64,000 nucleotides of DNA from Nitrosospira sp. Nl5 (GTDB lineage Bacteria; Pseudomonadota; Gammaproteobacteria; Burkholderiales; Nitrosomonadaceae), in the NCBI RefSeq assembly GCF_900102495.1, contig NZ_FMVQ01000003.1:1-64000 (forward strand). The letters are read 5' to 3'. Under the pieces are notes generated by a model. That model saw only the letters and a list, made by a program, of their open reading frames with translations. It was not told the origin of the DNA and ran no database searches. A program made the position numbers and the translations under genes. Positions 14,140 to 30,328 of the stretch are shown in pieces; the stretch's first letter is position 1, and the number at the start of each line of letters is the position of its first letter.

Positions 14140-15357
14140 ATGCGAATCCTGCATATCCTTGACCACTCCATTCCACTGCATAGCGGTTACACTTTTCGCA
14201 CCCTCTCCATCCTCAAGGAACAGCGCGCCCTGGGATGGGAAACCTTCCACCTGACCGGGCCAAAGCAGGAGAATTGCAATCTGTTCCAGGAAGATGTCGA
14301 CGAGTGGCATTTCTATCGCACTCCGCCGAGAGGTAGTCTGGCGTCGAAACTGCCTGTCTTGAATCAGATCGATGTCATTAATAGCCTGACCCACCGCTTG
14401 AGTGAGGTGGCTAAGCTCGTCAAGCCGGATATCCTGCACGCCCATTCGCCGGTTCTGAATGCTCTGCCTGCTTTGCGCGTGGGCCGGAGGCTAGGCATCC
14501 CGGTCGTCTACGAGGTCAGGGCATTCTGGGAAGATGCCGCGGTAGACCATGGCACCAGCAGTGAATGGGGAATTCGATATCGTCTCACCCGGGGATTGGA
14601 GAGTTATGCGCTACAACGCGCTGATGCTATCACCACCATCTGTGAAGGGCTAAGGAGCGACATTCTCGAACGAGGCATTGCGCCCGGGAAAGTGACCGTT
14701 ATCCCGAACGCGGTAAATATCGAAAATTTCAGCATGGGGGAGACTCCCGATGCGCAACTCTCCAAGGATCTCGGCCTTGAGGGCAAGCTCTCGCTAGGCT
14801 TTATCGGCTCTTTCTACGCTTACGAAGGCTTGCGCGTTCTACTGCAGGCCTTACCGGAAATGTTGTCGAAAAACCGTGACATTCGTATCCTGCTGGTCGG
14901 CGGGGGCCCGCAGGCAAAAGAACTGAAAGCTCTTGCTAAGCAACTCGGGATCGAGGACAAGGTGATCTTCACTGGTCGCGTTCCTCATGACCAGGTGCGG
15001 CGCTATTACAATTTGATCGATGTGCTCATCTACCCGCGCCTGAAAATGCGGCTTACGGACCTCGTAACGCCGCTCAAGCCGCTTGAAGCCATGGCGCAAG
15101 GCAGGCTGGTCGTAGCCTCGGATGTCGGGGGGCATCTGGAGCTTATTCAGGACGAAAAAAACGGCATCCTTTTCAAGGCAGGCGCTGCGGATGCTTTGGC
15201 GGCCAAGGTGTTAAACCTCCTTTCCCGGCCTGACCTATGGCCCTCGCTACGCGCCGCGGCCCGAAACTTCGTGGAGACACAACGCAACTGGCCAGGTAGT
15301 GTGGCCCGCTACAAGGACGTCTATGGTCCGCTTGCACGCAGGAGCGTACCCGAGTGA
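14140..15357 (+). CDS. Exosortase A-associated glycosyltransferase (Daro_2409-type)
   Basis: This is a 405-residue GT-B glycosyltransferase. The N-terminus MRILHILDHSIPLHSGYTFR matches the exosortase-A-associated family typified by Daro_2409 (TIGR04063-like). The donor-binding domain shows FTGRVPHDQVRRYYNLIDV and the acidic EAMAQGRLVVASDVGG segment. It should extend the lipid-linked polysaccharide unit. It is the first gene of a tight operon: its TGA overlaps the GTG of the next glycosyltransferase (15354-15357). Confidence 0.88.
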   Translation: MRILHILDHSIPLHSGYTFRTLSILKEQRALGWETFHLTGPKQENCNLFQEDVDEWHFYRTPPRGSLASKLPVLNQIDVINSLTHRLSEVAKLVKPDILHAHSPVLNALPALRVGRRLGIPVVYEVRAFWEDAAVDHGTSSEWGIRYRLTRGLESYALQRADAITTICEGLRSDILERGIAPGKVTVIPNAVNIENFSMGETPDAQLSKDLGLEGKLSLGFIGSFYAYEGLRVLLQALPEMLSKNRDIRILLVGGGPQAKELKALAKQLGIEDKVIFTGRVPHDQVRRYYNLIDVLIYPRLKMRLTDLVTPLKPLEAMAQGRLVVASDVGGHLELIQDEKNGILFKAGAADALAAKVLNLLSRPDLWPSLRAAARNFVETQRNWPGSVARYKDVYGPLARRSVPE

Positions 15358-16472
15358 AAGCGTCGGGCATGCGGATCGGGCTGGTTGGACCTTTACCTCC
15401 TCCTTCGGGAGGAATGGCGAATCAAACACTACAACTCGCAAAGTTGCTGCGTGAAGAGGGGGCCGCAGTGGAGTTGATCCAGGTTAATCGCGCCTACCGC
15501 CCCTACTGGATCGGCAGGCTCAAAGGAATAAGGGCGATCTTTCGGCTTCTGCCCTACCTGGCCCGCCTATGGCAATCCGCGGGCAAGGTTCAGGTATTCC
15601 ACGTAATGGCCAATTCCGGTTGGTCGTGGCACCTCTTCGCCGCTCCGGCAATCTGGATAGCCAGGCTCACGGGAATACCGGTCGTTGTCAATTATCACGG
15701 CGGGGAGGCGGATGCCTTCTTTGACAACGCCTTTTTCTGGATCAAGCCCAGCCTGTACCGGGCAGATGCGATCATCGTTCCTTCGAGCTTTCTTGAAGCG
15801 GTGTTTGAAAAGCGTGGTTTCTCTACCAGCATCGTGCCAAACATCATCGACCTCAGCCGCTTTTCGGCTGAAACCGATGTTGAAGCTTCGTCGAAAACAA
15901 ATTCGCCACATATAATTGTTACCCGCAATCTGGAGCTAATTTATGATAATGCTACGGCCTTGCGCGCTTTCAGTATTGTCAAGCATACATTTCCCGGGGC
16001 AACACTCATTATTGCCGGCTCCGGTCCGGAGCGGGAAGCGCTGGAGAAGCTCGCAGCCGTGCTTGGCATGACGGATGCGGTCACTTTTACCGGCCGTATG
16101 GATACCGATGGCATGGCCGCCCTCTACCGTGGCGCTGACGTCATGGTGAATCCCAGCTTGGCCGATAATATGCCCATCTCCATATTGGAAGCATTGGCGA
16201 GCGGCGTTCCCGTGGTGAGCACCGACGTCGGCGGGGTGCCTTATATGGTGGAACATGGAAAAACTGCATTGCTGGTGCCCGCACAAGACCCGGCGGCGAT
16301 GGCGGATGCTATTCTTACGCTACTCAACGAACCTGTTCAGGCCAGGCAAATCAGTAAAGCGGGCAAAGAGTCCGTCCAGCAGTATGCCTGGTCGGAAGTG
16401 CGTGACCGTTTGCTGTGTGTTTACGAACAGGTGCTGACAAGACCACGCACATCCGCAGTGGGTATTAAGTGA
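15354..16472 (+). CDS. Glycosyltransferase family 4
   Basis: This is a 372-residue GT-B enzyme. It has a glycine-rich acceptor loop near the start (GLVGPLPPPSGGMANQ), a middle segment NYHGGEADAFF, and the donor domain motif NMPISILEALASGVPVVSTD, with the Glu typical of retaining family-4 transferases. The start is GTG at 15354, overlapping the previous stop; an ATG at 15369 is a possible alternative. It is coupled to the downstream adenylating enzyme by another GTGA overlap (16469-16472). The role is addition of a sugar to the repeating unit; specificity is unknown. Confidence 0.87.
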   Translation: MKASGMRIGLVGPLPPPSGGMANQTLQLAKLLREEGAAVELIQVNRAYRPYWIGRLKGIRAIFRLLPYLARLWQSAGKVQVFHVMANSGWSWHLFAAPAIWIARLTGIPVVVNYHGGEADAFFDNAFFWIKPSLYRADAIIVPSSFLEAVFEKRGFSTSIVPNIIDLSRFSAETDVEASSKTNSPHIIVTRNLELIYDNATALRAFSIVKHTFPGATLIIAGSGPEREALEKLAAVLGMTDAVTFTGRMDTDGMAALYRGADVMVNPSLADNMPISILEALASGVPVVSTDVGGVPYMVEHGKTALLVPAQDPAAMADAILTLLNEPVQARQISKAGKESVQQYAWSEVRDRLLCVYEQVLTRPRTSAVGIK

Positions 16473-17851
16473 AGGCTAGTTCGCCTGCGGGAACGGACTT
16501 ATACACGTTACTTATCTCCGGCCTGCTTTTCCCTCTCCATGAGCGGCTCAAGAAGCACAATAGCGTGACGGTGCGTAAAGAGATGGAGCTCTCCCAATGG
16601 TGGGATGAGAAGCGCCTGGAGGAGCTCCGGCTTTCGAGGCTGCGCCAGTTGCTTGCGCATGCCCAGGCGCATGTCCCCTATTACCGCCGGCTATTCGCGG
16701 AGGTTGGCTTCAAGGCGGAAGGTTTCAACTCCCTTGCCGATCTTGCATTGTTGCCCTTGCTCGATAAATCCAGGATCCGTTCCAATCTGGAAGCACTGAA
16801 ATCCGAAAAAGCCCGGCACCTTGCCCGCTTCAACACGGGCGGCTCTGGCGGAAATCCATTGATCTTCTACATCGGCAGGGAGCGTATTAGCCACGATGTG
16901 GGCGCGAAATGGCGCGCCACACGCTGGTGGGGAGTGGATATCGGCGATCCGGAGATCGTCGTCTGGGGGTCTCCAATTGAGCTTGGCGCGCAGGATGGCG
17001 TTCGTGCCCTGCGCGACCGCCTGCTTAGGACCCGGCTGCTCTCCGCCTTCGAAATGTCGGAACAGAAACTCGACCTGTTCCTCGATGCATTACGTGCAAC
17101 GCGGCCCAAGATGCTCTTTGGCTACCCCTCCGCGCTGGCGCATATCGCTCGCCATGCTGAAGCAAAGGAGCTGCGCATGGATAATCTCGGTATCCGGGTT
17201 GCTTTCGTCACGTCGGAACGGCTCTACGATGAGCAGCGCCAAAAAATCAGCAAAGTCTTCGGCTGCCCGGTGGCAAATGGTTACGGTGGCCGCGATGCCG
17301 GCTTCATCGCCCACGAATGCCCTCATGGCGGCATGCACATCACCGCCGAAGATATCATCGTCGAGATCTTGGACCCTCAAGGTGTTCCGCTGCTTCCCGG
17401 CGAAGCCGGGGAGATTGTGATAACCCATCTCGCCACGCAGGACTTCCCTTTCATCCGCTATCGTACTGGCGACATCGGTGTGTTGGACAACAAGTCTTGT
17501 AGCTGCGGGCGAGGGCTTCCCCTGCTCAAGGAGATACAGGGCCGCAGTACGGATTTTCTGGTTGCTCAGAATGGAACAGTCATGCATGGTTTGGCGCTGA
17601 TTTACATCCTGCGCGACTTGCCCCAAGTACGCAACTTCAAGATCATCCAGGAAAGCTTGGACTTCACTCGCGTATTAGTGGTATCCGCGGATCGGCTCAA
17701 CTCGAAATTTGTCGAGAAAATCGAATCAGGATTCAAGGCAAGGCTTGGACAAGGGGTACAGATAGCGGTTGAGGAGGTGGCGGAAATCCCCGCTGAAAAA
17801 TCGGGAAAATTTCGCTATGTTATTAGCAAGGTCCCGGCAACTCATGTATGA
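16469..17851 (+). CDS. CapK/phenylacetate-CoA-ligase-like adenylating enzyme
   Basis: This 460-residue ANL-type enzyme is related to capsular CapK proteins and phenylacetate-CoA ligases. It shows the P-loop-like NTGGSGGNPLIFYI near residue 118, the A5-type YGGRDAGFIAHEC, and the RYRTGDIG motif near residue 331. The C-terminal swivel domain ends AEKSGKFRYVIS, with a Lys in the right region. It should activate a carboxylate as acyl-AMP and pass it to a thiol, possibly the acyl carrier protein of this locus, for polymer acylation (inference). It is last in the operon with the two glycosyltransferases; the GTG start at 16469 overlaps the previous stop. Confidence 0.82.
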   Translation: MKASSPAGTDLYTLLISGLLFPLHERLKKHNSVTVRKEMELSQWWDEKRLEELRLSRLRQLLAHAQAHVPYYRRLFAEVGFKAEGFNSLADLALLPLLDKSRIRSNLEALKSEKARHLARFNTGGSGGNPLIFYIGRERISHDVGAKWRATRWWGVDIGDPEIVVWGSPIELGAQDGVRALRDRLLRTRLLSAFEMSEQKLDLFLDALRATRPKMLFGYPSALAHIARHAEAKELRMDNLGIRVAFVTSERLYDEQRQKISKVFGCPVANGYGGRDAGFIAHECPHGGMHITAEDIIVEILDPQGVPLLPGEAGEIVITHLATQDFPFIRYRTGDIGVLDNKSCSCGRGLPLLKEIQGRSTDFLVAQNGTVMHGLALIYILRDLPQVRNFKIIQESLDFTRVLVVSADRLNSKFVEKIESGFKARLGQGVQIAVEEVAEIPAEKSGKFRYVISKVPATHV

Positions 17852-17875
17852 GAGCGATGAACAAAACAGCTAGCG

Positions 17876-19366
17876 CTAGATTGAATCGTCTTTAAAGTAC
17901 TGACGATAGCGAAGGCTGACCTCGCTTACCGCCCAGGCAAACGCATAACGGCGCAGCCGGCTCGGACTGTCAAGCGAAGTTTGAGGCCCCAGCCGCCACA
18001 GCAGAGGGGTTTTGTGCAGTGCAGATCCTAAGATGTCCAAGGCTCGGCCGGCGAATCGCTCATAGCCTTCGCTGAGTGGTGGCGGCAGTCTCCCGCGCTT
18101 CAGCCATTCGACTCGATGTTGCGCGAGCCACGCGCGATAAGCCTTTAGCGATGGAGGGCTCAGGAATTCGGTAAATGCCACCGCACTGGCTCTTTTAACC
18201 ATACCGAAGACCTCGCGTGGGACATCGGCTGATTCGACAATGCGGCGCGGAATAGGCCGGCTATAGTCGCCGGGTACGTCCCAAGGGCGCATTTCCTCTG
18301 AATTGCTCAGAGAGTTGATAGCCCCGATTTGCCGTACTCCCCAGAAAGTAACCGGACAATGGATGAATCCCGCCCAAAGCCGATACTCGGATAGCGAAAG
18401 CCCGGAAGAGTCGCCCCGTACAATATTTTCGCTCAGGTCCCTGGTGTCTTTTGCCCATACCTTGTCGCCATGATAACCTGTAAGCAACACCCGCCCTGCC
18501 AAGGCCGTGGCGGCACTAGCAAGTGGCACTGCTTCGGACGTGCCATCGGCTGCGATAAAGAGAACCTCCGACCCGCCAAGCTCGCGCCATGCATTGCGCG
18601 CTACGCGGATAGGGCGCAAACCAAGATAAGCCGCCACTTGCTCTCCGTTCTCCGTATCTCCAAATCGGTCCTTATCGATGCACAGCGCTTCTTCGCACCC
18701 GGCCGCGCGAGCAAGCGCGGCAATTGCCGGAGAATCGTAGCCCGACGATGCGGTAGCGAGAAATCGGTAGCTCCGCTTTCTGGTGCGATCGGTTATATTG
18801 CCCGACATCGCCATGAGATTTTCCTCGATAAATTGCTGGTAGCGAGCGAAGCTACTGAAATCCCTCCAAATTACATCCCTGGATGCATATGCCGCTTCAC
18901 GGCCATCCCATGTAACGAATCCGAACATCGTGATATGGATATCGCCCAGCGAAGTCGCCAGCGTGCGCTTGTATGCAGAAAGACCATGAATAATACTGGT
19001 AAAGTCCTCGTAGTAGCGCGGGTAGGTAGGATCAGTCGTTGCGCCGGATATAGCCAGTAGGCATGGCAGCGAATTGGAGACCAGCAATCCGTTGCCCGTT
19101 TGCAGCGATAGGATACGATCTACCGTATTGCCAGGCGCCACAAAAGTTACGATGTTATCGCGGCAGCGGCCGCCTGTTCCCGCCACGAGGTCGGTCCGAT
19201 CAAAATCCCCTGCGTCAAAGGAGCCTGGCCACACAGCCTCGCAAAACCAGTCGGGACGGGTCTCAACCTGGCTGCCGTGCCACACCGTGATCGCCCCGTT
19301 CACGCGACAGCGTGTAATCCAAGCAAGCGGAGCCCATTGTTTGATGCAGTAGTATTCTATTTGCAC
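17876..19366 (-). CDS. Asparagine-synthase-like protein, paralog 1
   Basis: This 496-residue protein has an ATP-pyrophosphatase (PP-loop) motif in ATASSGYDSPAIAALA near residue 205. Asparagine-synthase domain helices follow, including SENIVRGDSSGLSLSEYRLW. The N-terminal domain starts MQIEYYC and lacks the Cys2 nucleophile of class II glutamine amidotransferases, so ammonia is probably not taken from glutamine. It is clearly paralogous to the next gene: both share DWFCEA, FDRTD-VAG, GNTVDR and LVSNSL. The reaction is probably carboxyl adenylation followed by amide formation. Substrate unknown. It is convergent with the CapK-like gene (24-bp gap). Confidence 0.75.
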   Translation of the reverse strand: MQIEYYCIKQWAPLAWITRCRVNGAITVWHGSQVETRPDWFCEAVWPGSFDAGDFDRTDLVAGTGGRCRDNIVTFVAPGNTVDRILSLQTGNGLLVSNSLPCLLAISGATTDPTYPRYYEDFTSIIHGLSAYKRTLATSLGDIHITMFGFVTWDGREAAYASRDVIWRDFSSFARYQQFIEENLMAMSGNITDRTRKRSYRFLATASSGYDSPAIAALARAAGCEEALCIDKDRFGDTENGEQVAAYLGLRPIRVARNAWRELGGSEVLFIAADGTSEAVPLASAATALAGRVLLTGYHGDKVWAKDTRDLSENIVRGDSSGLSLSEYRLWAGFIHCPVTFWGVRQIGAINSLSNSEEMRPWDVPGDYSRPIPRRIVESADVPREVFGMVKRASAVAFTEFLSPPSLKAYRAWLAQHRVEWLKRGRLPPPLSEGYERFAGRALDILGSALHKTPLLWRLGPQTSLDSPSRLRRYAFAWAVSEVSLRYRQYFKDDSI

Positions 19367-19416
19367 ATCACGGCCGCTTTCAAATGCTCATATTTGGCTA
19401 CTGCTAAGAGAATTTC

Positions 19417-20961
19417 TCACTTGTCCCCAATGTACTTGCGCTTGGCCATGTCAATTGCCCAAGGGAAGAGGAAACGCCGGAGCGGCAGCACCCATGGTGG
19501 TTTAGGATTATTAGCCCAATCTACAGTTTCGAACCAATGCAGAGGTCTTCGCACGAGGTCCAACGTCGCAAATGAGTGGCCAATAGAACCTAATTTCCCG
19601 GCAGCACGCTGAGTGGACTTAAACATTTTGAAGAATATCCGGTCAGCATTTCGGCTGGTTAAAATTGTGGAGAACGGGCCATGAATCAGACTTGGGCGAT
19701 TGTATTCTAGCCACTGCAGGTAGTTTTCCATAGACTGCGGTGTAAGAAACTGGGCTGAACTGTTAGGCCAGCTTGAGGCGGCCTTTTTTTTTCTGCCGAA
19801 CAATTCTCGTGGTACGCCAGAACTCTCTACGATCCGTCGGCATATCGGACGGCTGTAACCACCGCTGACATCCCATTTGTGCATGGTTTGCTGATTTGAA
19901 AGCCGGACGATGTCCGCTGATTGCCGAGCTCCCCAGAACGGAATTGGGCAATGGAGGAAATTTGCCCAGAGCCGATACTCGGTAAGAGAAAGCCCGGATG
20001 GATCTCCCCTGACAAAATTCTCCGACGCATGATCTATATCCTTACCCCACACGACATCACCGTGGAATCCTGTCAGGAGAATCCGAGAACTCAGTATTGA
20101 GGCAGCTGCGGTATATTGGACTTCCTCACCCAAGCAATCGGCTGCTATATGGGGTACTTCTGGGTTCGCGCTGTCTCGCCACTTGCCTATATCAATGATA
20201 TCAAGATCGACCCCCAGGTAACCAGCGATTTCACTACCCGAATCGGTTGATGGCTCCTCCATACCTCCGAACGTAAATCCTCTTACTTTCGGAGCGACCG
20301 TCTTTGCTACCGCAGTGACTGTTGGCGAGTCATAGCCCGTAGAAAGTGTCGTTAAGAGCTGGAAAGGGTATCGGCGGCTGTTGTCAGCACTGTTGAGGTG
20401 AACACAATGCAGCGTTTCAACGAGGAAGTCGTAGTAGCATTCAAAGCTTGACAAGTTCCGATGAATCCTTGGTTTTTCGACTCGCCTGAGGGTATGTCCG
20501 TTCCAAACAAGATTGCGGTAATAAGTCAGCAGTATATTTCCGCGTGAACTCGGGATCTCGGACTGATAGTGTTCGATCCCTTTCACGATACTGTGAAAAG
20601 CCGCGTGCCAGTCGTGGTCAAGCAAGAAATCGAGGTCGGCAGTAGCGGCAAGACAGGCGAGGGAGTTTGATACCAGTATAGTCCCCGCTAGGTTTAATGA
20701 GACCAACCGGTCGACGGTATTTCCCGCCGAAACGAAAACCAGTTGCCCACTCCGCTTCCGTCCACCGCTACCGGCCACAATATCCGTACGGTCAAACCCG
20801 CCATCATTGAATTCCCCGTCCCATGCTGCTTCACAAAACCAGTCATCCATAACTTCAACATTTGGCCCATGACTGATGACAACTGCCTCCGTGTCGGGTT
20901 CACAGCGGGCCAGCCAAGCTAGCGGGGGCCAGGCAGGAACCAAGGCAAAGGATAGATTCAT
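19417..20961 (-). CDS. Asparagine-synthase-like protein, paralog 2
   Basis: This 514-residue paralog of the preceding gene has the same layout: the N-terminal DWFCEAAWDGEF block, FDRTDIVAGSGGR, GNTVDRLVSL and LVSNSLACL, then the PP-loop TTLSTGYDSPTVTAVA near residue 205. The C-terminal synthase domain contains FVRGDPSGLSLTEYRLW. The N-terminus MNLSFAL again lacks a Cys2 glutaminase nucleophile. It lies 50 bp from paralog 1 in the same direction, consistent with tandem duplication and divergence. It probably forms an amide or ester on a sugar uronate or amino acid. No recognisable RBS precedes the ATG. Confidence 0.75.
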   Translation of the reverse strand: MNLSFALVPAWPPLAWLARCEPDTEAVVISHGPNVEVMDDWFCEAAWDGEFNDGGFDRTDIVAGSGGRKRSGQLVFVSAGNTVDRLVSLNLAGTILVSNSLACLAATADLDFLLDHDWHAAFHSIVKGIEHYQSEIPSSRGNILLTYYRNLVWNGHTLRRVEKPRIHRNLSSFECYYDFLVETLHCVHLNSADNSRRYPFQLLTTLSTGYDSPTVTAVAKTVAPKVRGFTFGGMEEPSTDSGSEIAGYLGVDLDIIDIGKWRDSANPEVPHIAADCLGEEVQYTAAASILSSRILLTGFHGDVVWGKDIDHASENFVRGDPSGLSLTEYRLWANFLHCPIPFWGARQSADIVRLSNQQTMHKWDVSGGYSRPICRRIVESSGVPRELFGRKKKAASSWPNSSAQFLTPQSMENYLQWLEYNRPSLIHGPFSTILTSRNADRIFFKMFKSTQRAAGKLGSIGHSFATLDLVRRPLHWFETVDWANNPKPPWVLPLRRFLFPWAIDMAKRKYIGDK

Positions 20962-21164
20962 TAGAAATACTAATCCGGGATGAAAGGAAAGTAGGAGGCA
21001 TAAATATCGCCATCGGCAACCTCAAAGCATTTCTGCTGGAAGACCCTATTGATGGGGCTATCGTCCAAGTATCGCAAATAATCAATAAATTCTGTTACTC
21101 GTTTAACCGGTGTTATCAACAGTTTAGAAGCACTTCGACATATACGCTTGGTTACTATTAATCA
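20962..21164. other. Intergenic spacer within leftward block
   Basis: This 203-bp AT-rich spacer lies between the ATP-grasp gene and paralog 2 of the synthase-like pair. No gene or clear hairpin is seen. Confidence 0.3.
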
Positions 21165-22208
21165 TTAGTCTTCTAAAATACCAAGGCGACTAACAAAATC
21201 TTTCCAAATAGCATCTTCCGGTCTCATTGAGCCGGCAATCCAAACAAGCTGTTGCGAGTCATCATATAGTTCCCAGTGTCCCGGACAAGCCGCGATGGCC
21301 CATCCTTCATAGTAATAACTGATTTCCGCAATTACAGGCTCCTCATCCCGGCGCAGCACGTCGACCGCCAATGATTGGGTCTCGAGTATCCTAGCTGTTT
21401 CAAAAGCAAGAAAAATAGCATCTTCCGGGATCTGCGCTGGGTCCCAATCGATACGACCGCTACCGCTTGCCCGGAAGTCGTTGGGGCGATTGTGCCGTCT
21501 GAATGCAAATGCGCGATTACCAATTACAGTGATACGAATATCAAACTCATTTCCTGGTAAAAACTCTTGAAACAGTAAATACCCTTTATGAAATTCGTCA
21601 TTATTTTTTTCGGAAAGCAGGATACGGCGTGCTTCACGGCACCTCCCCGCAAACCATCGGAAAGGAAGGTTGGGAGGTGGCAGAGTATGCATACCAGAAC
21701 CGAAAAGTTCTTTGGCGTATCGCCGTGCTTCTGAGGCGTTATGTATCAATTCCACATTTCTTGAGACTATCCCAGAAGCGAGCTTCAGAACCAACGGATA
21801 TTTAGCTGAAGCTATGAATTCTTCTGCTTGGCGTTGCCACCAAAGCACGTATGTTTCTGGGATAGGAACACGAGTCGCGCTTAGCAAATAATACTGAGCT
21901 ACTTTATCATCGAAATGCCAGATAGTATTGAGGTTAGGAAATGTCGGTATCTTGCTAACGTGCGCAAGTGACGCAATAACTCGGCGACCGGGCCTGATTG
22001 CGGGAAGTGGCTGCCCAAACCACCACATCAGTGCATCGCAACCACTAAGCTGTTCGAAGTAGTTTTGTGGGTTCGAGTAAATATCTATTTTACGTGTTGC
22101 AATGCCTTGCTTAGAAGCTAGCTCATGCCAGCGTGTTGAGAAAGACTGGTAACGACCACTCGAAAGCTGTAAATAATCTTCCTGGATTGCAATGATCGGC
22201 TTATTCAT
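21165..22208 (-). CDS. ATP-grasp ligase (RimK-like)
   Basis: This is a 347-residue ATP-grasp protein. The pre-ATP-grasp domain comes first, then the NTIWHFDDKVAQYYLL helix. A nucleotide-binding strand PLVLKLAS is followed by FQEFLPGNEFDIRITVIGNR (adenine contact) and the metal-binding end AVDVLRRDEEPVIAEIS. RimK-like enzymes join a carboxylate to an amine through an acyl-phosphate, often adding amino acids. Sitting between asparagine-synthase-like genes and a flippase, it supports a polymer-aminoacylation module (inference). The gene is visibly AT-richer than the atp operon, suggesting transfer. Confidence 0.78.
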   Translation of the reverse strand: MNKPIIAIQEDYLQLSSGRYQSFSTRWHELASKQGIATRKIDIYSNPQNYFEQLSGCDALMWWFGQPLPAIRPGRRVIASLAHVSKIPTFPNLNTIWHFDDKVAQYYLLSATRVPIPETYVLWWQRQAEEFIASAKYPLVLKLASGIVSRNVELIHNASEARRYAKELFGSGMHTLPPPNLPFRWFAGRCREARRILLSEKNNDEFHKGYLLFQEFLPGNEFDIRITVIGNRAFAFRRHNRPNDFRASGSGRIDWDPAQIPEDAIFLAFETARILETQSLAVDVLRRDEEPVIAEISYYYEGWAIAACPGHWELYDDSQQLVWIAGSMRPEDAIWKDFVSRLGILED

Positions 22209-22257
22209 AGAAAACTCTATTAATAATAATAGTTAAATGTAGGAGGCGAGCCATGCT

Positions 22258-23727
22258 TCATCCCGCAACTGATTTCGTCGGTTTGAGCGTTGCAATACTC
22301 CGTAGCATCTCAAGCACTTCGTGGGTTCCTTTACGGTTGAGCCCGAATGAGATAGCGCAGTACGCCAGCGCGCCTACCGCAACCAGAACACACAGGCGCA
22401 ACGCTCCTCCTTGGCCGTCCGCAAAAATGTAGCGCGTTGCGGTAACGGCGGCATACATGATGAAACCGGCACCCGCTGCAGGCATCATTGCCTTGAAGAG
22501 CTGACTCATGCGTAGGCCAAGCGCCGGCAACACCCTCCACATGCTCTGCAGAAACATGAGTGGCGACGCGACGAGCCACGCCAAGCTTATGCCGAGTAGC
22601 CCCCAGTTTACACCGATGAGAAATGCCAGGGGTAAAATCACCGATGCCCAGATAGCGTTGCGTAGCAGGATATCGGAACGGCCCATTCCCTGGACGGCGG
22701 CCGGTACAAAGTTGGCAATCATCCGCAGCGGCATAATCAGTCCCAGCACCTGCAGAGGGATGGCGGATGGTGTCCATTTAGCGCCAAGGATCACCTCGAC
22801 AATTTCCTGGGCAGTGCTGGATATGCCCCACATCAAGGGGAAGGCAAAGAAGCTCAAGATCCGAATACCCAGCAGCACGTTTTCTCCTACCTTGCGGACA
22901 TTGTCCTGCATGCGTGAAAACGTCGGGAACGCAACCTGATTGATGATGCCCAGGACGCGCTGGGTCGGCAGCGAGGCGATATGCATGGCAACCGAATAGA
23001 AGCCAAGGGCTTCCTTGCCCAACCATTTTCCGCAAATGATGGTGTCGACCTGGGAGAAAAATAGCCATAGCACTTGGGAAGCGGTGACTTGACCACCGAA
23101 GCGCAGCAATGATCGCGTTCCTTGCAATGAAAACTCCGGCCAGTGCAAGAAGGGCGCTAGCCAGTTGAGTCCGATAGCCTTCCAGACTTGACTGATAAGC
23201 GTCCCCAGGACAAGCGCCCAGACTCCCCAACCGGCCAACGCCATAGTTAGCGTAGCAAGGCTGCTGATAATTGTGGCTGACAAGTCCAATAGTGAACGCC
23301 TGCGAAATTCCATCCGCCTCTGCAGTTGGGTATCCGGCATAACGACGAACGCGGTTAGAATGAATTGCAGGGAAAGAACACGAATGATTGCGGTTACCCG
23401 CGGTTCATCGTAAAAGCTGGCAATAAGCGGCGCCGCAAGCATTAGAAGGGCGGCCAGTGAAAAGTGGATGACAAGGGTCGTGCCGAATACTCGTCGAAGG
23501 AGTGATTCGTCGACTTCGGATTTCTGAATGACCGCCGCGCCAAGGCCGAACTCGGAGAACGCCGAGAAAAACAGAACAAAGACGGTGGACATTGCGAGTA
23601 GCCCATAGTCCTCCGGCGTCAGGAGCCGAATCACGATGAGCGTGATTGCCCACGTGATCATCTGGCTGGCGAGTCTCGCGCTGGCGTTCCAGCGAAAGCC
23701 AGACAGGGCTTGCTCGCGTAATGTCAT
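22258..23727 (-). CDS. Wzx-type polysaccharide flippase
   Basis: This is a 489-residue polytopic membrane protein of the MOP/WzxC-like family with roughly 12-14 hydrophobic segments. The N-terminus MTLREQALSGFRWNASARLA and the early IRLLTPEDYGLLAM motif are typical of lipopolysaccharide/O-unit flippases. It should move the undecaprenyl-linked repeating unit across the inner membrane for polymerisation. It is the first gene of the leftward block with the ATP-grasp and synthase-like genes, so decoration probably occurs in the cytoplasm before export (inference). Confidence 0.88.
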   Translation of the reverse strand: MTLREQALSGFRWNASARLASQMITWAITLIVIRLLTPEDYGLLAMSTVFVLFFSAFSEFGLGAAVIQKSEVDESLLRRVFGTTLVIHFSLAALLMLAAPLIASFYDEPRVTAIIRVLSLQFILTAFVVMPDTQLQRRMEFRRRSLLDLSATIISSLATLTMALAGWGVWALVLGTLISQVWKAIGLNWLAPFLHWPEFSLQGTRSLLRFGGQVTASQVLWLFFSQVDTIICGKWLGKEALGFYSVAMHIASLPTQRVLGIINQVAFPTFSRMQDNVRKVGENVLLGIRILSFFAFPLMWGISSTAQEIVEVILGAKWTPSAIPLQVLGLIMPLRMIANFVPAAVQGMGRSDILLRNAIWASVILPLAFLIGVNWGLLGISLAWLVASPLMFLQSMWRVLPALGLRMSQLFKAMMPAAGAGFIMYAAVTATRYIFADGQGGALRLCVLVAVGALAYCAISFGLNRKGTHEVLEMLRSIATLKPTKSVAG

Positions 23728-24270
23728 GCGCGGAAATCCGGATGGACCTTTTCACTCAAGAGTAGAAATTCTGTCCAATCCGGTAGTTGGGTCACGAAGA
23801 CGGCCCCGGCACTTCCGTCATAGTCACAATATTAAGTGCCTTGCTTTTGCGTAAGCTTGAATAGCAGCTCATAAAATATAGTCGTACAACGCTATGTGTT
23901 AAGTGGGTGGCGCGTTACGAGCTTCAATTAGCAAGGAATTGTTAGTTCTGCGCTATCGACATGCAAAGATTACGGACAGACGTAAGCCGAGCGCTGATCA
24001 ATCAAGGGTATCTCGAAGGCAGGGCGAACAAATAGTGTATTCTTTCACAATTAGTGCGGTAATGTTAATCTCGTTAACGGCGGTAGTAGAGGGAACAGTA
24101 GTATAATTCAGTTAAGAAAGAACTGCAGAATTTGCGTTACCTTACGGGGATGGGGAAAGTGGTTTCGGCGGCGGCTCGACTTATTTTCGAATAAGAGGGA
24201 ATGGCCGATAGCCGCTTATGACCCAAACTAGTCAGTATAAAAGTTATAAGTTAAAAAAGTATCAAGGGCC
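23728..24270. promoter_or_regulatory. Divergent intergenic region with inverted-repeat fragment
   Basis: This 543-bp AT-rich region between the leftward flippase gene and the rightward synthase-like gene should hold both promoters. TATAAA at 24236-24241 could serve as a -10 box for the rightward gene, but no good -35 is seen. A 14-bp match to the terminal repeat of the family A element lies at 23777-23790. No gene is supported. Confidence 0.35.
23777..23790 (+). repeat. Solo fragment of family A terminal inverted repeat
   Basis: AATCCGGTAGTTGG is identical to bases 5-18 of the consensus terminus of the family A elements at 29815 and 63248. The sequence on its right diverges at once from the element interior. 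It may be a decayed end or a recombination scar; chance is unlikely but not excluded. Confidence 0.35.
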
Positions 24271-26037
24271 ATGTCGGTTTTCGCCGGAGTTTTCGCATAT
24301 CAAGCCAATAAAGCAATACCCGTAGAGCTTATTGATGAGCTTCGCGCCGAAGTATCACGCTACCCCGGGGACGCGAATGCCAGGATTGAGTTCGCTGCTG
24401 CAGGGATCTTCATTGTAAAGATTGACGTTGGGGCGCTGCGTGAGCCAGGGGAATATTCCAATTCTGCATTGACAGCCTTTGTTGCGGGCGACCCTATTTT
24501 GCAGTGCAATCCTGGCGCGCTTCCGATATCGCGAGCTGAAAGTCTGCGGGCTCTCGCACACGAGCTGGTGACCGGGCAAGATAATGCCCTGCGTTCATGC
24601 CGAGGAACGTATTGCGCAACGGTCTACGAAGGCTCCGACCACAGGTTGCACCTGTTTACCGACAAGCTTGGTGTCAGACCAATCTATTGCTGGGTTTCGG
24701 GGGATTACATCGTATTCGCCACTGCGTTGCGGATCCTGGAAGCCATATCCTTTTGTACAAAATCCCTCAACCTTCAAGGTGTGGCGGAAACTGCTTGTTT
24801 TGGCTACCCGCTTTCGGATCGCACGCCTTACCAAAATATCTTCTGCCTCCATGCGGGGGAGGTCGTAAGCATCGACATTTGCGGTCTTCAGCGCCGGCGG
24901 TACTGGCGATGGGACGAAGCCCCGACGGCGCCGGCGTCTGAGGTAGATGCGCCTAAGCGGCTTTATCGGCTTTTTACCGATGCGATCGGGATACGCCTAC
25001 GCGGCCAGAAGGTTGTTGCCGCGTTTATAAGCGGCGGCCTGGACTCTCGAGCGGTAGCAGCGGCGTTAAAGGGCGCCCCTGCGGAGGTGATCGCGGCGAA
25101 TTTGGGCGCACCCGCTAGCCAGGATCAGGTATTTGGCAAACTAGCCGCGGAGAAGTTGGGAATCCACTATTCGTATCTCCAGTCTCGCCCGTTAGTCGAA
25201 GGCGACGCGTATAGTAAAGCCACTATCAGTGACTGGCTAAACTCGGCGGAATCACTCGCCCTCGGTCTGCAACGACCGCGCGTTATGTGGGGCGGCGACG
25301 GTGGCAGTCTCGGTCTCGGTCATATATATCTCAATGCGGATATTGTCGCGGCGGCTCGTGCGGGTGATTTGCAGGCGGCTATCGCGAAATTCATGGCGTA
25401 CAACCGATGGGGTCTCCAGGGCAAACTCCTCAGGCCGAACATTGCCAAAGCAATGCGTGACATGATCCACGACGGTATCAATGCGGAACTGGAGTCAGTC
25501 CATCCTGCGGATCCGGGCCGTATTTTTTATTTGTTCCTCATGCTGAACGACCAGCGCCGACATATGTTCAACCATTTCGAAAATATGGATCTAACGCGCA
25601 TTGAGTTCGAAATGCCATTCTTTGATGCCGAATTCATTGCAGGGGTACTGAGGGAACCAATAGATTCCTTTCTACGCCACGGTTTTTATCTCGAATGGCT
25701 AAAGTGCTTTTCCCAGCCGGTTCTGGAGATCCCGTGGCAGGCATATCCCGGCCATTTGCCTTGCCCGCTTCCACTCCCCGAAGGCCTGACTCATCAATGG
25801 CAGAGTAATCTCTCCCCGGAACAGGACCGAGAAAGACGGCATTGTGCCCTGAATGGTGCTCGCGCCCTGCTTTGCGATAAAGGTTTTTCGCGCGAATACC
25901 TCAGCTATGGGTGGATTCGGCTATTCATACTATTGATGAAATGGGGGAAGGGAGACCGCTCTTACCTAATGCATGTGCCGTCTTTGATAAGACGTTACTG
26001 GTCCCAGACTACTCGTGGCACGGCTAGAAACAACTAG
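24271..26037 (+). CDS. Asparagine synthetase B-like protein without Cys2
   Basis: This is a 588-residue two-domain protein laid out like asparagine synthetase. The N-terminal Ntn-type domain includes TDKLGVRPIYCW and GYPLSDRTPYQNIF. The PP-loop synthase domain has FISGGLDSRAVAAAL near residue 255, then MWGGDGGSLGLGH. The first residues are MSVFAGVF, so the essential Cys2 glutaminase nucleophile is replaced by Ser. Either it uses free ammonia or another amine, or it is a beta-lactam-synthetase-like cyclase. Its stop overlaps the convergent methyltransferase stop by 4 bp (26034-26037). It is more canonical than the tandem pair at 17876-20961. Confidence 0.8.
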   Translation: MSVFAGVFAYQANKAIPVELIDELRAEVSRYPGDANARIEFAAAGIFIVKIDVGALREPGEYSNSALTAFVAGDPILQCNPGALPISRAESLRALAHELVTGQDNALRSCRGTYCATVYEGSDHRLHLFTDKLGVRPIYCWVSGDYIVFATALRILEAISFCTKSLNLQGVAETACFGYPLSDRTPYQNIFCLHAGEVVSIDICGLQRRRYWRWDEAPTAPASEVDAPKRLYRLFTDAIGIRLRGQKVVAAFISGGLDSRAVAAALKGAPAEVIAANLGAPASQDQVFGKLAAEKLGIHYSYLQSRPLVEGDAYSKATISDWLNSAESLALGLQRPRVMWGGDGGSLGLGHIYLNADIVAAARAGDLQAAIAKFMAYNRWGLQGKLLRPNIAKAMRDMIHDGINAELESVHPADPGRIFYLFLMLNDQRRHMFNHFENMDLTRIEFEMPFFDAEFIAGVLREPIDSFLRHGFYLEWLKCFSQPVLEIPWQAYPGHLPCPLPLPEGLTHQWQSNLSPEQDRERRHCALNGARALLCDKGFSREYLSYGWIRLFILLMKWGKGDRSYLMHVPSLIRRYWSQTTRGTARNN

Positions 26038-26777
26038 AACGCTAAAACGTCAGGATCAGGTTGACCCGATGTGGTTTTTTTACCCGTCGCAATGGCAAGG
26101 GCATCCTCAAGTTCTTTGGACGAACGGGTTGGCGCATGATTCTGGGCATAAGCGAACAGAATTGGCATCTCAAATTTCTCGTCCTTCATCGTCTCGACGA
26201 AAACAGACTTGAAGCATGCCGAAAGCTCCTTCGTTAGGGTCTCTTTCGTAAATTTTATGACGTGACTCGGCTCGTCGATGGGGCCAAGACAATTGTCCGG
26301 AACGAATATTATCAGCGTTCCCATGGGCTTGAGGATGCGGCGCAAACCATATAGAAACTTCCGGCGCCAAATGATGTGCTCAAGTACTTGGGACGCAATG
26401 ACGACATCGAATTGCTGGTCGGGTAGAGGAAGATTTGGAAGCCGAGCATGATGCATCGTAATTCCGCGCTCGCCCAAAACCTCCACAGCCCTGCGGGAAA
26501 TCTCAAGGCCCTCAAGGTTTGCGTAGCCGTACTCCTGCAAATATCGAAGCAGCGAACCCGTACCGCAGCCGACATCAAGGATTCGGTCCGTGGTCGAGGT
26601 AAGAGCTCGTATCAGCTGATTCTTGGTCGGCCAGTCGCGGCTTCCCAGTTGCCAGCTTATGTCGAAAGCCATGTTCCAGTACTCTTCCGATTCATGCCGG
26701 GCCTGAACGTTAGCCAGTAAATGGTAACCCAGCGGGAAATGCTCGGAGAAAAAATTTTTTATGCGCCACGGCAACAT
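26034..26777 (-). CDS. Class I SAM-dependent methyltransferase
   Basis: This is a 247-residue methyltransferase. Motif I is RILDVGCGTGSLLRYL near residue 65, the motif II acidic end is LEGLEIS, and motif IV is FDVVIASQVLEHI. The C-terminal region (PMGTLIIFVPDN) is typical of methyltransferases of the UbiE/Methyltransf_11 type. It is the last gene of the leftward set after the GNAT/FemAB-like genes. It likely methylates a sugar or a transferred aminoacyl group, but the substrate is not recognisable. Confidence 0.8.
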   Translation of the reverse strand: MLPWRIKNFFSEHFPLGYHLLANVQARHESEEYWNMAFDISWQLGSRDWPTKNQLIRALTSTTDRILDVGCGTGSLLRYLQEYGYANLEGLEISRRAVEVLGERGITMHHARLPNLPLPDQQFDVVIASQVLEHIIWRRKFLYGLRRILKPMGTLIIFVPDNCLGPIDEPSHVIKFTKETLTKELSACFKSVFVETMKDEKFEMPILFAYAQNHAPTRSSKELEDALAIATGKKTTSGQPDPDVLAF

Positions 26778-26919: not shown

Positions 26920-27633
26920 TCAGATATTGCTTTGACTACGGCGATAGTAAATACTCTTGTTTGATGATGGGGGGATGCGGATATATGTAATGTGGCCTAA
27001 TCGTTTCAACCCAGCCTTGATTATCCCACGTTGAGAAGCGTGATTTTTGTGGTCGGCCATCATGTAAACGCGTTCAACCCCATTCTGGAACTGAAGATTT
27101 GATAGAAATCGGATCGCATAAGGATAAATTCCAAGACCACGAAATTTTTCTAATGTAAAACAATTAACAATTTCTACTTCAAGCTCTTCCAGGGCTAACC
27201 GCTGGAAAGGCTCCAGCGAATATTGGGCCGCCGTATAAATCCAGCTCATGTGAGCCAGTTCTCCGCCTATGTAGACGCCATACGCGGTGTCGATCCCCCG
27301 GTTCGCATGATATAGCCTTGCTTGTTCCCCAAATCTCCCGTCGCAACGAGTAAGGGTAAACAGATCCTCTGGAGACATCTTTCTAATGTCGAGGCCTGGC
27401 CGAAATTCCAGAGGTTGCATTTGTTCATGGCTCCAGCCAAACAATACAAACCTGCTAAAGTCAATAAAAGACCCGATAGAGACTCGACTAGTAGGGATCA
27501 TGCGTTTTAGATTAGCCTTGGCGAGAGTAACGGTCTTTTCTCTGACGTCCTGTATGGTCGGCATAGGGTTGTTTAACGATATGGCGAAGCTTCTGGGAAA
27601 ACTGATACCCCTTTTTAGAATGGCTGGGTTCAT
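26920..27633 (-). CDS. GNAT-family N-acyltransferase
   Basis: This is a 237-residue protein with a GNAT core. It has the substrate-side strand AYGVYIGGELAHMSWIY and the acyl-CoA pyrophosphate loop EIVNCFTLEKFRGLGIYPYA, which fits the R/Q-x-x-G-x-G/A motif. Later strands read VYMMADHKNHASQRGI, another GNAT hallmark. It probably N-acylates an amino sugar or the added amine of the polymer. It belongs to a leftward run of three GNAT/FemAB-like genes and is AT-richer than its surroundings, which may indicate transfer. The exact start is uncertain (several Met near the beginning). Confidence 0.75.
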   Translation of the reverse strand: MNPAILKRGISFPRSFAISLNNPMPTIQDVREKTVTLAKANLKRMIPTSRVSIGSFIDFSRFVLFGWSHEQMQPLEFRPGLDIRKMSPEDLFTLTRCDGRFGEQARLYHANRGIDTAYGVYIGGELAHMSWIYTAAQYSLEPFQRLALEELEVEIVNCFTLEKFRGLGIYPYAIRFLSNLQFQNGVERVYMMADHKNHASQRGIIKAGLKRLGHITYIRIPPSSNKSIYYRRSQSNI

Positions 27634-27704: not shown

Positions 27705-28838
27705 TTATACCAACGATTTGTCGCCAAGCTCATCAAGGTTAACCCAAGAGCACCCAAGGTCTACTTGCCGCTGAAATTGCGGTGGAATTTCGGCATTCCA
27801 GCTAATGGCTCTCAGCCTCCCCTCCGTACATTCGAGTAGTGGAGTTGATGCGAGAAACGATTGCGATGCTGCCGATCCCAGATCGAGCTTTGCACCGACG
27901 AAAGATCGTGATCCCTCTATTTGACCGTCCACAAATCTTACTTCAGGAGGTACCATGGTCGCTCCCCACTTGAGTTTGAAATTCAGGGGACCGTCCTTAA
28001 CAAAGGCGCTGCTTGAGCCCATATTGAATTCCGTGAATTCATTCTCCTGCGCCCATGTTAGAGATCGATAATAGAGAGCGGCTACAATCCCCTTCTTTAG
28101 CCACGCGTCGTCTCCATTCCGCCAGCCTAAATTTGCGATTCGAATACTATTTGCTCCCTCTATAGCAAGGAGGATGGCTCCAACCCACTCGTCGTCCAGA
28201 TGAGCGGCAATAAGAACACCGTTCTGATGGATATGTTGTATATCTTCCCATTTTGAAAAAAATCCGCGCTCCTCATGCCGATTCTGTACCGTTGGGATTA
28301 GCATTTGCTGAAAAAACTCATGAAGCGCCTGATCGCTCTTTTTATTCTCAAAACGGTAGTCAAAGCGACGCGCAACCCGCATGGGATGATTAGCTCCCTT
28401 GCTCGTGATCAACTCATTAATTGGCTTGCGCAAATCGATAAGGCAATTCACGAACAACGGCATAACATGCCACCCGCGTTTTGCGAATAAAGGCATGGTC
28501 CACGGATTTAATGGGCAAAGGGTGATATCAGCAGCCAACGCAGGGGTGCGTTCTCCCAATATCTGAAAAAGCGAGAAGTTGCCCAGGAAGGCAGGCTCTA
28601 TTGCATGGCCGAACAATTTGTGGGTCCACGAGGCATACTGAGGCCGGTCTCCGAGGTAGAGAATTGAGCCTTCACTTTTACCGTCGGGAAGCTCTGAACG
28701 CACACGATATGCAGGCATGCGCCAGTTTCTGAGCGTGTCCTGCAGGCTGACCGAGCCGATGTCTATTTGACGACGAAGATTATCCGGCAAAGCGGCGTGC
28801 AAGGGGCGGAGCAAAGACTTAAGTGAGTGCAAACCCAA
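27705..28838 (-). CDS. FemAB/GNAT-like acyltransferase (Acetyltransf_6 type)
   Basis: This is a 377-residue protein. The C-terminal half carries the typical GNAT_6/FemAB segments: VLIAAHLDDEWVGAILLAIEG, ALYYRSLTWAQENEFTEFNM and GPLNFKLKWGA. FemAB-related enzymes transfer amino acids from tRNA or acyl groups from CoA or carrier proteins. It starts 2 bp after the stop of the neighbouring FemAB gene, so the two are co-translated. In this setting I infer transfer of an acyl or aminoacyl group to the exopolysaccharide precursor. No substrate is evident. Confidence 0.72.
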   Translation of the reverse strand: MGLHSLKSLLRPLHAALPDNLRRQIDIGSVSLQDTLRNWRMPAYRVRSELPDGKSEGSILYLGDRPQYASWTHKLFGHAIEPAFLGNFSLFQILGERTPALAADITLCPLNPWTMPLFAKRGWHVMPLFVNCLIDLRKPINELITSKGANHPMRVARRFDYRFENKKSDQALHEFFQQMLIPTVQNRHEERGFFSKWEDIQHIHQNGVLIAAHLDDEWVGAILLAIEGANSIRIANLGWRNGDDAWLKKGIVAALYYRSLTWAQENEFTEFNMGSSSAFVKDGPLNFKLKWGATMVPPEVRFVDGQIEGSRSFVGAKLDLGSAASQSFLASTPLLECTEGRLRAISWNAEIPPQFQRQVDLGCSWVNLDELGDKSLV

Positions 28839-28840
28839 AC

Positions 28841-29809
28841 CTATCCCTTCCCGGAAATAAAAAGCCGCCGCAGCAGGCAGGAAGCAACACTTGCCGGCCT
28901 GAACCTTGCAGCCTCAAGATTAATTCTTTCAGTTGCCGTTCCGAAGCCGGTTTTGAATTTGACCAACCCCGATTCCGGATCCGGATCGTCGGTGCCTCCC
29001 AGATTGAATACCTCCTTTCCTTCATCTCGCAGCGTACAGGCAATTTCATGAATAAGAAAATGGGCTGCACCGCAGTCCATACCCTCCGGGCTGGTGCCCT
29101 GAGTGTGACTGTATCCCGCCTTTTCGGCCAACAGTATAAAGTTAGAGGAAACCACCTGACCGCCTAGAACCGCCTGAAAAATCTCTGCTGCGCCGGAATC
29201 GACCAGCTGATGCAGGCTTTCCACGGGCGCCGTCGTCGTTACATTCTCTCCGCGCTCCTGTCGTCGCTGCATGGAGGCGCTGATTAGGCGCGCGTGCGCA
29301 TCGGCCGCTTGCCGGTTGCGCACACGTTGCATTTCCACCCCCATTTTCTTCGCACGCTTGACTCTGTAAGCATGTCCTTTCGACATTTTTTTCAAGAAGT
29401 CGGAATGGCTTAACTTCAGCACATACTCCCAACGCGCCTTGCGGCTTTCTTCATGATGTAGTGGCGGAATTACGCCACCTTCCGAGCAAAAGCTATTCAC
29501 TGACAAGTCAGAGACACCTTTCAAACGGCAGAAATCCATGATCCCTTTCCAGAAGGATCCATTCGCTGGAAGATCTGGCGCGGAGGGGATTTCCAGCGAG
29601 CATCTCATCCGTCCGCTCTTCATGAATGCGGGGCAGTATACGTCTGATCCGGCAGGGTCGCCATTGATCAGAATCCATGGCGTAAATCCCTGCGCACGTC
29701 GAAAGGCAAAATATTCGGGAGTATAAAACGGGTTTGCCGGATTTAAAGCGGCAATCTCCCGGACCAGTACCGATGTCATGCCAGGTTCAACTCTGAATAT
29801 TCCGGTCAT
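28841..29809 (-). CDS. FemAB-family acyltransferase
   Basis: This 322-residue protein has FemAB-like architecture: an N-terminal NPANPFYTPEYFAFRRAQGF block, then the mid-protein helix SKGHAYRVKRAKKMGVEM. The GNAT fold follows (LLAEKAGYSHTQGTSPEGMD, GKEVFNLGGTDDPDPESGL, LVKFKTGFG). FemAB-type proteins are recurrent in PEP-CTERM/exosortase-A loci. Its ATG at 29809 lies 5 bp from the terminus of a family A element. The element end reads TTTAGG upstream of the start, so it provides the only Shine-Dalgarno-like sequence. Confidence 0.82.
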   Translation of the reverse strand: MTGIFRVEPGMTSVLVREIAALNPANPFYTPEYFAFRRAQGFTPWILINGDPAGSDVYCPAFMKSGRMRCSLEIPSAPDLPANGSFWKGIMDFCRLKGVSDLSVNSFCSEGGVIPPLHHEESRKARWEYVLKLSHSDFLKKMSKGHAYRVKRAKKMGVEMQRVRNRQAADAHARLISASMQRRQERGENVTTTAPVESLHQLVDSGAAEIFQAVLGGQVVSSNFILLAEKAGYSHTQGTSPEGMDCGAAHFLIHEIACTLRDEGKEVFNLGGTDDPDPESGLVKFKTGFGTATERINLEAARFRPASVASCLLRRLFISGKG

Positions 29810-30200: not shown

Positions 30201-30280
30201 TTCGATCTGCTTTTCAATTATTTATTTGTCTCCTCAAGCTAAGAGTGCCATATGGATATATTATTTTCGTGTTGGCAGGA

Positions 30281-30313
30281 AACAATAAAAAGCAGGTTCA
30301 GCTTTTTATTGTT
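30281..30313 (+). promoter_or_regulatory. Perfect 13-bp stem-loop just before RBS
   Basis: AACAATAAAAAGC (30281-30293) and GCTTTTTATTGTT (30301-30313) are perfect reverse complements with a 7-nt loop. The RBS GAAGGA (30317-30322) of the next gene starts 3 nt later. This position suits translational control of the leader RNA, or an operator. It lacks a following U-tract, so it is not a standard terminator. Confidence 0.5.
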
Positions 30314-30328
30314 CTTGAAGGATTTGCA

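Follow-up and report, generated by a model that had tools for sequence, protein, structure and literature searches.

Why would one exopolysaccharide locus encode several putative amide-forming enzymes next to a flippase? This question is raised by a 64,000-nucleotide stretch of contig NZ_FMVQ01000003.1 of Nitrosospira sp. Nl5 (hereafter, the window), where the initial annotation had proposed, at positions 16469-26037, a candidate module for amide decoration of uronic or amino sugars before export. We propose that three asparagine-synthetase-like proteins (AsnL1, AsnL2, and AsnL3) and an ATP-grasp protein, encoded in a serotype-like variable cassette, form amide bonds on the repeat unit of a polymer before a matched Wzx flips it, a reading to which we assign a probability of about 0.48. 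The label AsnL is introduced here for divergent proteins of the asparagine synthetase superfamily. The gene set itself was confirmed and is as follows:

16469..17851, plus strand: CapK/PaaK-like AMP-forming enzyme, the end of the left flank (AMP-binding 2.2e-9; PaaK in PDB 1.7e-28)
17876..19366, minus strand: AsnL1, an AsnB-superfamily putative ligase without a Cys nucleophile, GTG start (fold prediction, SSGYDS)
19417..20961, minus strand: AsnL2, the second AsnL (Asn_synthase 0.0026, under the cut-off; STGYDS)
21165..22208, minus strand: RimK/LysX-like ATP-grasp putative ligase
22258..23727, minus strand: Wzx flippase of the AsnL3-associated clade (Polysacc_synt_3 1.2e-81; genome distribution)
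24271..26037, plus strand: AsnL3, AsnB-like, with a degenerate N-terminal nucleophile (Ntn) domain (Ser2, no NGE motif) and an intact SGGLDS (Pfam; alignment; profile comparison 99.5%)

The exopolysaccharide setting also held up, since amide-forming families adjoin Wzx, genes of the TviB and TviC types occur in the locus, and XrtA lies on the same contig (at ~77 kb, 13 kb past the window end and beyond ATP synthase genes). More specifically, an NCBIfam scan found XrtA hydrolases 1 and 2, TIGR04063, and TIGR03097 inside the window, and XrtA, TIGR03007, TIGR03018, TIGR03015, TIGR03006, TIGR03019, and TIGR03108 scored above their cut-offs at 68-82 kb of the contig. The genome therefore holds XrtA and associated genes of an XrtA/PEP-CTERM exopolysaccharide system. 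The whole module is also present in a Nitrosospira metagenome-assembled genome (L014), the nearest named relative, at 66-82% identity.

The ligase candidates lie in a variable cassette

We compared the DNA next to CapK from 18 other Nitrosospira genomes. The genus counts 23 genomes, and the comparison did not include G002, G003, or G009. CapK is 73-82% identical across the 18 stretches, and the O-ligase is 69-76% identical in the 14 that extend to it, whereas the genes in between are differing glycosyltransferases and uncharacterised genes. A Wzx is encoded in 17 of the 18 stretches, at only 23-36% identity to that of the window, and no gene labelled AsnL1/2, AsnL3, or ATP-grasp occurs in any of the 18. 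Because CapK and the O-ligase are conserved and the genes between them diverge, we regard CapK as a flank gene and the amide-ligase candidates as cargo. CapK had initially been counted in the module, a membership that we rejected: it belongs to the core of the locus, being present in 51 of the 125 genomes of the family and in 22 of the 23 of the genus (E ≤ 1e-60). A variable interior between conserved flanks resembles the repeat-unit-defining regions of O-antigen and capsule loci, and the genes lying between CapK and the O-ligase are best read as a variable, serotype-like cassette within an exopolysaccharide locus of the XrtA type. The other genes of this locus are:

437..1717, plus strand: TviB-type UDP-GlcNAc C6 dehydrogenase (NF011729 6e-145, under the equivalog cut-off; the nucleotide sugar dehydrogenase model TIGR03026 over its cut-off)
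1734..2771, plus strand: TviC-type UDP-GlcNAcA C4 epimerase (NCBIfam NF011728 2e-146, under the cut-off)
8172-9752: PEP-CTERM-like protein (45 bits against a cut-off of 50)
14140..15357, plus strand: XrtA-system glycosyltransferase TIGR04063, left flank (645.9 bits, cut-off 442)
26034..26777, minus strand: S-adenosylmethionine-dependent methyltransferase of the cassette (Methyltransf_11 2.2e-19; orthologues beside Wzx in genomes G130 and G069)
26920..27633, minus strand: small protein of the Wzx-linked set (no Pfam match; 58-62% orthologues in G130 and G069)
27705..28838, minus strand: possible FemAB/GNAT-like protein (TIGR03019 at 0.074 only; no Pfam match; has orthologues)
28841..29809, minus strand: FemAB/GNAT-fold protein (Acetyltransf_6 5.1e-11, FemAB 9.3e-10)
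30245..31768, plus strand: Wzx-linked protein with a weak epimerase/GH127-like signal (under cut-offs; 68-69% orthologues in G130 and G069)
31946..33292, plus strand: O-ligase/polymerase-like TIGR03097, conserved right flank of the cassette (6.9e-158)
33349..34377, plus strand: polysaccharide deacetylase-like, conserved right flank (deacetylase models under cut-off; 66-75% in genus relatives)

The TviB-type dehydrogenase is likely the source of a uronic acid. The two neighbouring genes of the FemAB/GNAT kind at 27705-29809 (the one at 28841 clear, that at 27705 uncertain) are common to G011, G130, and G069, and possibly encode further amide-forming enzymes.

The enzymes might instead build an amino-acid-bearing linking sugar that the exosortase attaches to PEP-CTERM proteins. 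A section of PMC7468200 suggests such a role for the VimA-related proteins of exosortase-bearing genomes, among them that of Nitrosomonas eutropha. In line with it, XrtA, a FemAB-family TIGR03019 protein, and a WbpS-type enzyme are encoded on the same contig, and the window contributes the PEP-CTERM-like protein. One would expect a general anchor to be conserved, whereas this module occurs in few genomes and belongs to a variable cassette; we consider this explanation improbable compared with decoration of the polymer.

AsnL3 is linked to one Wzx clade

Among the 125 family genomes, AsnL3 orthologues (at least 49% identity) occur in nine, and G008 comes next with 36%. At E ≤ 1e-3 the number of matching genomes is 69, the remaining matches having 19-29% identity. 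The Wzx clade of the window (at least 45% identity; next best, 40%) is found in 11 genomes. All nine AsnL3 genomes fall within these 11 (Fisher 3.6e-12, a value that ignores kinship and depends on cut-offs set after the lists had been seen). The window and Nitrosomonas species have AsnL3 and the Wzx clade in common, and most Nitrosospira congeners are without both. Across the class, 1 of 369 genomes, namely its own, has AsnL3 at E ≤ 1e-40, with at most three candidates scored per genome. This co-distribution, together with the split between AsnL1 and Mur ligase fusions described below, is consistent with amide decoration of the repeat unit as an exchangeable step that precedes export.

AsnL proteins have a predicted AsnB-type fold and no Cys nucleophile

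AsnL1 has no match in Pfam or NCBIfam, and recognition by PF00733/TIGR01536 failed for both tandem proteins, AsnL2 reaching 17.9 bits against a cut-off of 21. An hhalign comparison of the AsnL alignment (24 rows) gave 14.9% to Cys2 enzymes and 50.9%, over 58 columns, to AsnL3. A sequence search of the PDB with AsnL returned only matches of the naphthalene-dioxygenase type, which we took as chance. Structural prediction had been suggested as a check by the initial annotation, and the AlphaFold2 model of AsnL1 (predicted local distance difference test score, 90.6) adopts a fold of the AsnB/beta-lactam synthetase type. Its closest folds are those of beta-lactam synthetase (ranked first by Foldseek), AsnB, TsnB9, and carbapenam synthetase, at 11-14% identity. 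Overall, AsnL1 and AsnL2 are predicted to have the AsnB fold of the asparagine synthetase superfamily. Their tandem arrangement is not the product of a recent duplication, a scenario rejected by the tree, in which AsnL1 groups with G085 and Nitrosomonas single copies (five rows, 100/100) and AsnL2 forms a starred group only with its G016 orthologue.

As initially annotated, none of the three synthase-like proteins has Cys2. AsnL3 carries Ser2, AsnL1 has an extended N-terminus in which ~13 residues precede the equivalent position, and AsnL2 was assigned by its alignment with AsnL1. In addition, the glutamine-pocket motif NGE of the genome's own Cys2 enzyme is replaced by AGD in AsnL3. That enzyme is a TIGR03108 amidotransferase that keeps Cys2 and lies outside the window, at 68-82 kb of the contig. 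WbpS, initially cited as the precedent, belongs to TIGR03108; it shares the AsnB superfamily with the AsnL proteins, but it is an imperfect precedent, as AsnL3 scores 73.1 bits against the TIGR03108 cut-off of 816.9 and AsnL1 and AsnL2 give no match.

These observations bear on a simpler explanation, simple uronamide formation, in which AsnL1/2 and AsnL3 would act like WbpS, adding ammonia (free or delivered by another enzyme) to a uronate such as UDP-GalNAcA, with an amino acid used by the ATP-grasp enzyme alone. The AsnB-superfamily fold and the TviB/TviC-type genes agree with this. As members of an ammonia-oxidising group, the host cells should have ample ammonium. Uronamides are made by WbpS-type enzymes, according to portions of PMC6025236 and PMC7468200. 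Nevertheless, AsnL1, AsnL2, and AsnL3 have no glutaminase nucleophile, the genome already has a Cys2-bearing WbpS-type enzyme, and three extra enzymes for a single reaction would be redundant, all of which makes this explanation unlikely.

Could the AsnL proteins be catalytically dead and act as scaffolds or regulators? The degenerate Ntn domain and the position of AsnL1 and AsnL2 beyond or below Pfam detection would be compatible with that. However, the PP-loop motif S[ST]GYDS is kept in 22 of the 24 AsnL rows (SGMDS in one, an altered loop in one), both window copies included, and dN/dS, with dS saturated, is 0.10-0.13 for AsnL1, AsnL2, the ATP-grasp enzyme, and AsnL3 (~0.13 where it bears on a dead enzyme). 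Active ligases are therefore much to be preferred, and loss of catalysis is very improbable.

The ATP-grasp enzyme and Mur ligase fusions

The ATP-grasp protein matches PF08443 above the cut-off and has a predicted ATP-grasp fold. Its best structural matches, RimK, LysX, and ArgX (17-21% identity), are all amino-acid ligases, and judging from these nearest folds it most likely uses an amino acid. Orthologues of at least 68% identity occur in 6 of the 125 family genomes (12 at E ≤ 1e-3); in N. eutropha the neighbouring gene is AsnL, and in G076, G077, and G087 the neighbours are Mur ligases (without a peptidyl-tRNA hydrolase [PTH] domain in G077). Plasmid records gave no match to AsnL1 or the ATP-grasp protein. 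A sugar-transfer-associated ATP-grasp gene lies beside the RimK-like one in Nitrosomonas loci (L043:10835-12073, PF14397; L086:13426-14535, a 73% relative, L019/L086) and has no counterpart in the window (tblastn, 1e-4).

Some Nitrosomonas relatives encode, in or near exopolysaccharide loci, fusions of ~620-650 residues in which the middle and C-terminal domains of a Mur ligase are followed by a PTH domain (G071, G076, G087; four proteins scanned with Pfam); that of G073 was recognised by similarity. The Pfam-scanned fusions are:

L043:3989-5863: Mur-PTH fusion
L043:7892-9844: Mur-PTH fusion
L045:10605-12476: Mur-PTH fusion
L081:12803-14668: Mur-PTH fusion

By eye, the PTH part of one protein, that of L045, keeps GLGNPG, PHN, MN, and HDDMD, which we take to be catalytically meaningful. 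A match over both the Mur and PTH parts was found in 4 of the 125 genomes and the AsnL1 clade in 5, all of them with AsnL3, and no genome has both (Fisher 0.008 on the nine AsnL3 genomes). The fusions share a stretch with AsnL3 in G087 and G071 and sit on other contigs in G076 and G073; in G030, which is without AsnL3, only the Mur part has a close match. This pattern may reflect replacement of one amide-forming ligase by another. One targeted open-licence literature search returned no paper on a Mur/PTH fusion.

AsnL proteins in other lineages

A genome-collection scan with two short patterns uncovered 16 AsnL loci in Pseudomonadota, Gemmatimonadota, Acidobacteriota, Rokubacteria, Rhodothermia, Mycobacterium, and a deltaproteobacterium. 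Within the class, AsnL matched 19 of 369 genomes at E ≤ 1e-3, four of them (its own included) over the full length, with at most four candidates scored per genome. We looked for polysaccharide markers around 15 of the 18 AsnL loci outside Nitrosospira/Nitrosomonas exopolysaccharide loci (the three excluded, L022, L023, and L025, lie on short contigs). Markers that were not self-derived lay near 6 of the 15 and near 2 of 20 control stretches (p 0.051); all controls were drawn from Nitrosospira/Nitrosomonas genomes, whereas most test loci belong to other phyla, and one control (L107) is near its own tviB. The raw count was 8 of 15, from which L016 and L024 were dropped since they matched their own genes only. 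Since Pfam identified formyltransferase and PIG-L genes in L016 and a sulfotransferase gene and an ABC transporter in L024, the count of six may be low. It had been stated that homologs found mostly outside polysaccharide loci would refute the proposal, and here the outcome is mixed: six loci have such a marker, seven have none at all, and in L022 AsnL lies by lantibiotic-dehydratase and nonribosomal peptide synthetase (NRPS) genes. From these mixed contexts, the AsnL family seems to ligate carboxylates and amines in general and not to be confined to polysaccharides.

Individual loci vary considerably. In L017 (Burkholderiales), the flank is of the XrtA type and includes CapK (69%), and the locus also encodes a distant Wzx (28%). 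Its divergent AsnB-like protein has an internal MTILYG start, matches GATase_7 under the cut-off, and is 23-24% identical to AsnL3. In L100, two AsnL genes surround a third AsnB-like gene near a GT2-like gene. An Asp/Glu racemase gene adjoins AsnL in L018 (11548-12270) and lies at most 1.5 kb away in L026 (7808-8656), two distant lineages, a hint that the substrate could be an acidic amino acid. L029:6612-11515 (Rhodospirillaceae) holds an AsnB-like protein, an ATP-grasp protein (~50% to that of the window), and AsnL together, with no polysaccharide marker nearby.

The L029 trio, the Foldseek ranking, and the presence of AsnL beside lantibiotic-dehydratase and NRPS domains in L022 would also suit a small-molecule or ribosomally synthesized and post-translationally modified peptide (RiPP) pathway inserted in the locus, with AsnL proteins as lactam or macrolactam synthetases. 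A macrolactam cyclase of the lasso-peptide type would be expected near a precursor peptide and a B protein. By eye, however, no convincing precursor peptide was seen among the small open reading frames in four gaps (two of the window and one each of L029 and L014); the scanned cassette proteins include no NRPS or protease family (RiPP recognition elements and proteases were not specially searched for); and AsnL3 is linked to Wzx. We judge such a pathway as improbable as the exosortase linker.

Proposed mechanism

Under polymer decoration, the ATP-grasp enzyme would most likely couple an amino acid, through its amino group, to the carboxylate of a uronic acid via an acyl phosphate. The AsnL enzymes, following superfamily chemistry, would adenylate a carboxylate and form further amides with an amine or free ammonia, since they have no nucleophile for making ammonia from glutamine. 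The decorated lipid-linked unit would then be flipped by the matching Wzx. We thus infer catalysis, the uronic-acid substrate, the amine, the linkage, the order of steps, and decoration before export. The initial proposal is thus partly supported: amide-forming families do lie beside Wzx in an exopolysaccharide locus, CapK is not part of the module, and the claim of novelty was too strong.

Several findings weigh against polymer decoration. At the sequence level, family profiles and profile comparison support AsnL1/2 as AsnB kin only weakly. The AsnL3-Wzx association has exceptions: AsnL3 is missing from two Wzx-clade genomes, G130 and G069, which carry instead the methyltransferase, 26920, 27705, 28841 (FemAB-like), and 30245 genes, all present in the window, and in G008 the 36% AsnL3 relative lies beside the O-ligase, on a contig other than that of the CapK stretch, with a Wzx of 26% only. 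Divergent AsnL proteins occur without AsnL3 in G026, G097, and G127. The ATP-grasp enzyme is not obligatory: it is absent from G104 and G085, in which AsnL1 and AsnL3 are both present, and a close orthologue is missing from G071 and G073, which carry Mur-PTH fusions. The AsnL1/Mur-PTH split rests on nine related, partly fragmented genomes. Among the outside AsnL loci, 7 of 15 are without any marker (L015, L018, L027, L029, L087, L088, and L102), and on an Acidobacteriota contig (L022:2-5878) AsnL lies between a protein with a lantibiotic-dehydratase N-terminal domain and an NRPS AMP-binding/PCP/thioesterase fragment. Finally, Pfam/NCBIfam scans of the cassette proteins recognised no amine-supply gene.

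More tentatively, AsnL may represent undescribed AsnB-superfamily amine:carboxylate ligases of several phyla that have lost glutamine hydrolysis and that, in Nitrosomonadaceae, are interchangeable with Mur-PTH fusions as the repeat-unit-specific enzyme for aminoacylating exopolysaccharide uronic acids ahead of a matched Wzx, so that unrelated ligase superfamilies would fill one decoration step; we find this broader version doubtful. If polymer decoration is correct, the cassette would serve as a gene signature by which environmental exopolysaccharides with amide or peptide-like decoration could be recognised, add a ligase family missed by Pfam, and link polymer chemistry to flippase choice in ammonia oxidisers.

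Relation to known systems

The known acceptors of RimK, LysX, and ArgX are protein carboxylates, and beta-lactam and carbapenam synthetases are also without a working glutaminase; the latter two and TsnB9 have gene contexts different from those of AsnL1. WbpS/TIGR03108 enzymes resemble the AsnL proteins in superfamily, in their polysaccharide/XrtA loci, and in the amidation of HexNAcA by WbpS, and differ in being of the glutamine-dependent Cys2 type.

The initial statement that a multi-enzyme version is not described was too strong. In Porphyromonas/Tannerella, the Wbp/Vim system equips a single sugar with both a uronamide and an amino-acyl amide by means of two enzyme kinds; these are the FemAB-related VimA and WbpS, and the relevant section of PMC7468200 names no AsnL or RimK-like ATP-grasp enzyme. 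The psc1 locus of Rubrivivax gelatinosus (and Thauera MZ1T), of the PEP-CTERM type, combines three asparagine-synthase-like genes with CapK, FemAB, and wzxC, and transposons hit two of these three genes, CapK, and wzxC (portions of PMC3684757). The psc1 genes were annotated there as wbpS, glutamine-hydrolysing for two of the three; we liken them by annotation, not by sequence. Two asparagine synthetase genes are mentioned for a Zoogloea/Aquincola exopolysaccharide cluster in a passage of PMC9012009. The C-terminal amidoligase of Campylobacter jejuni Cj1438 is an ATP-grasp enzyme that amidates glucuronic acid in a surface polysaccharide, although it is TupA-like and uses serinol-P or ethanolamine-P, whereas the window enzyme is RimK/LysX-like (portions of PMC11800379). 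A passage of PMC7281560, on amide-linked lactate on pseudaminic acid, proved irrelevant as a precedent. As far as our limited open-licence literature search shows, three findings are new: a family of AsnL proteins without the Cys nucleophile, the pairing of this family with a RimK-like ligase, and the absence of overlap between it and the Mur-PTH fusions. The Wbp/Vim authors had already pointed to the exosortase locus of N. eutropha (a section of PMC7468200). The deposited genome of N. eutropha Nm24 carries AsnL1, the ATP-grasp enzyme, AsnL3, and Wzx together (L019), which makes the proposal testable.

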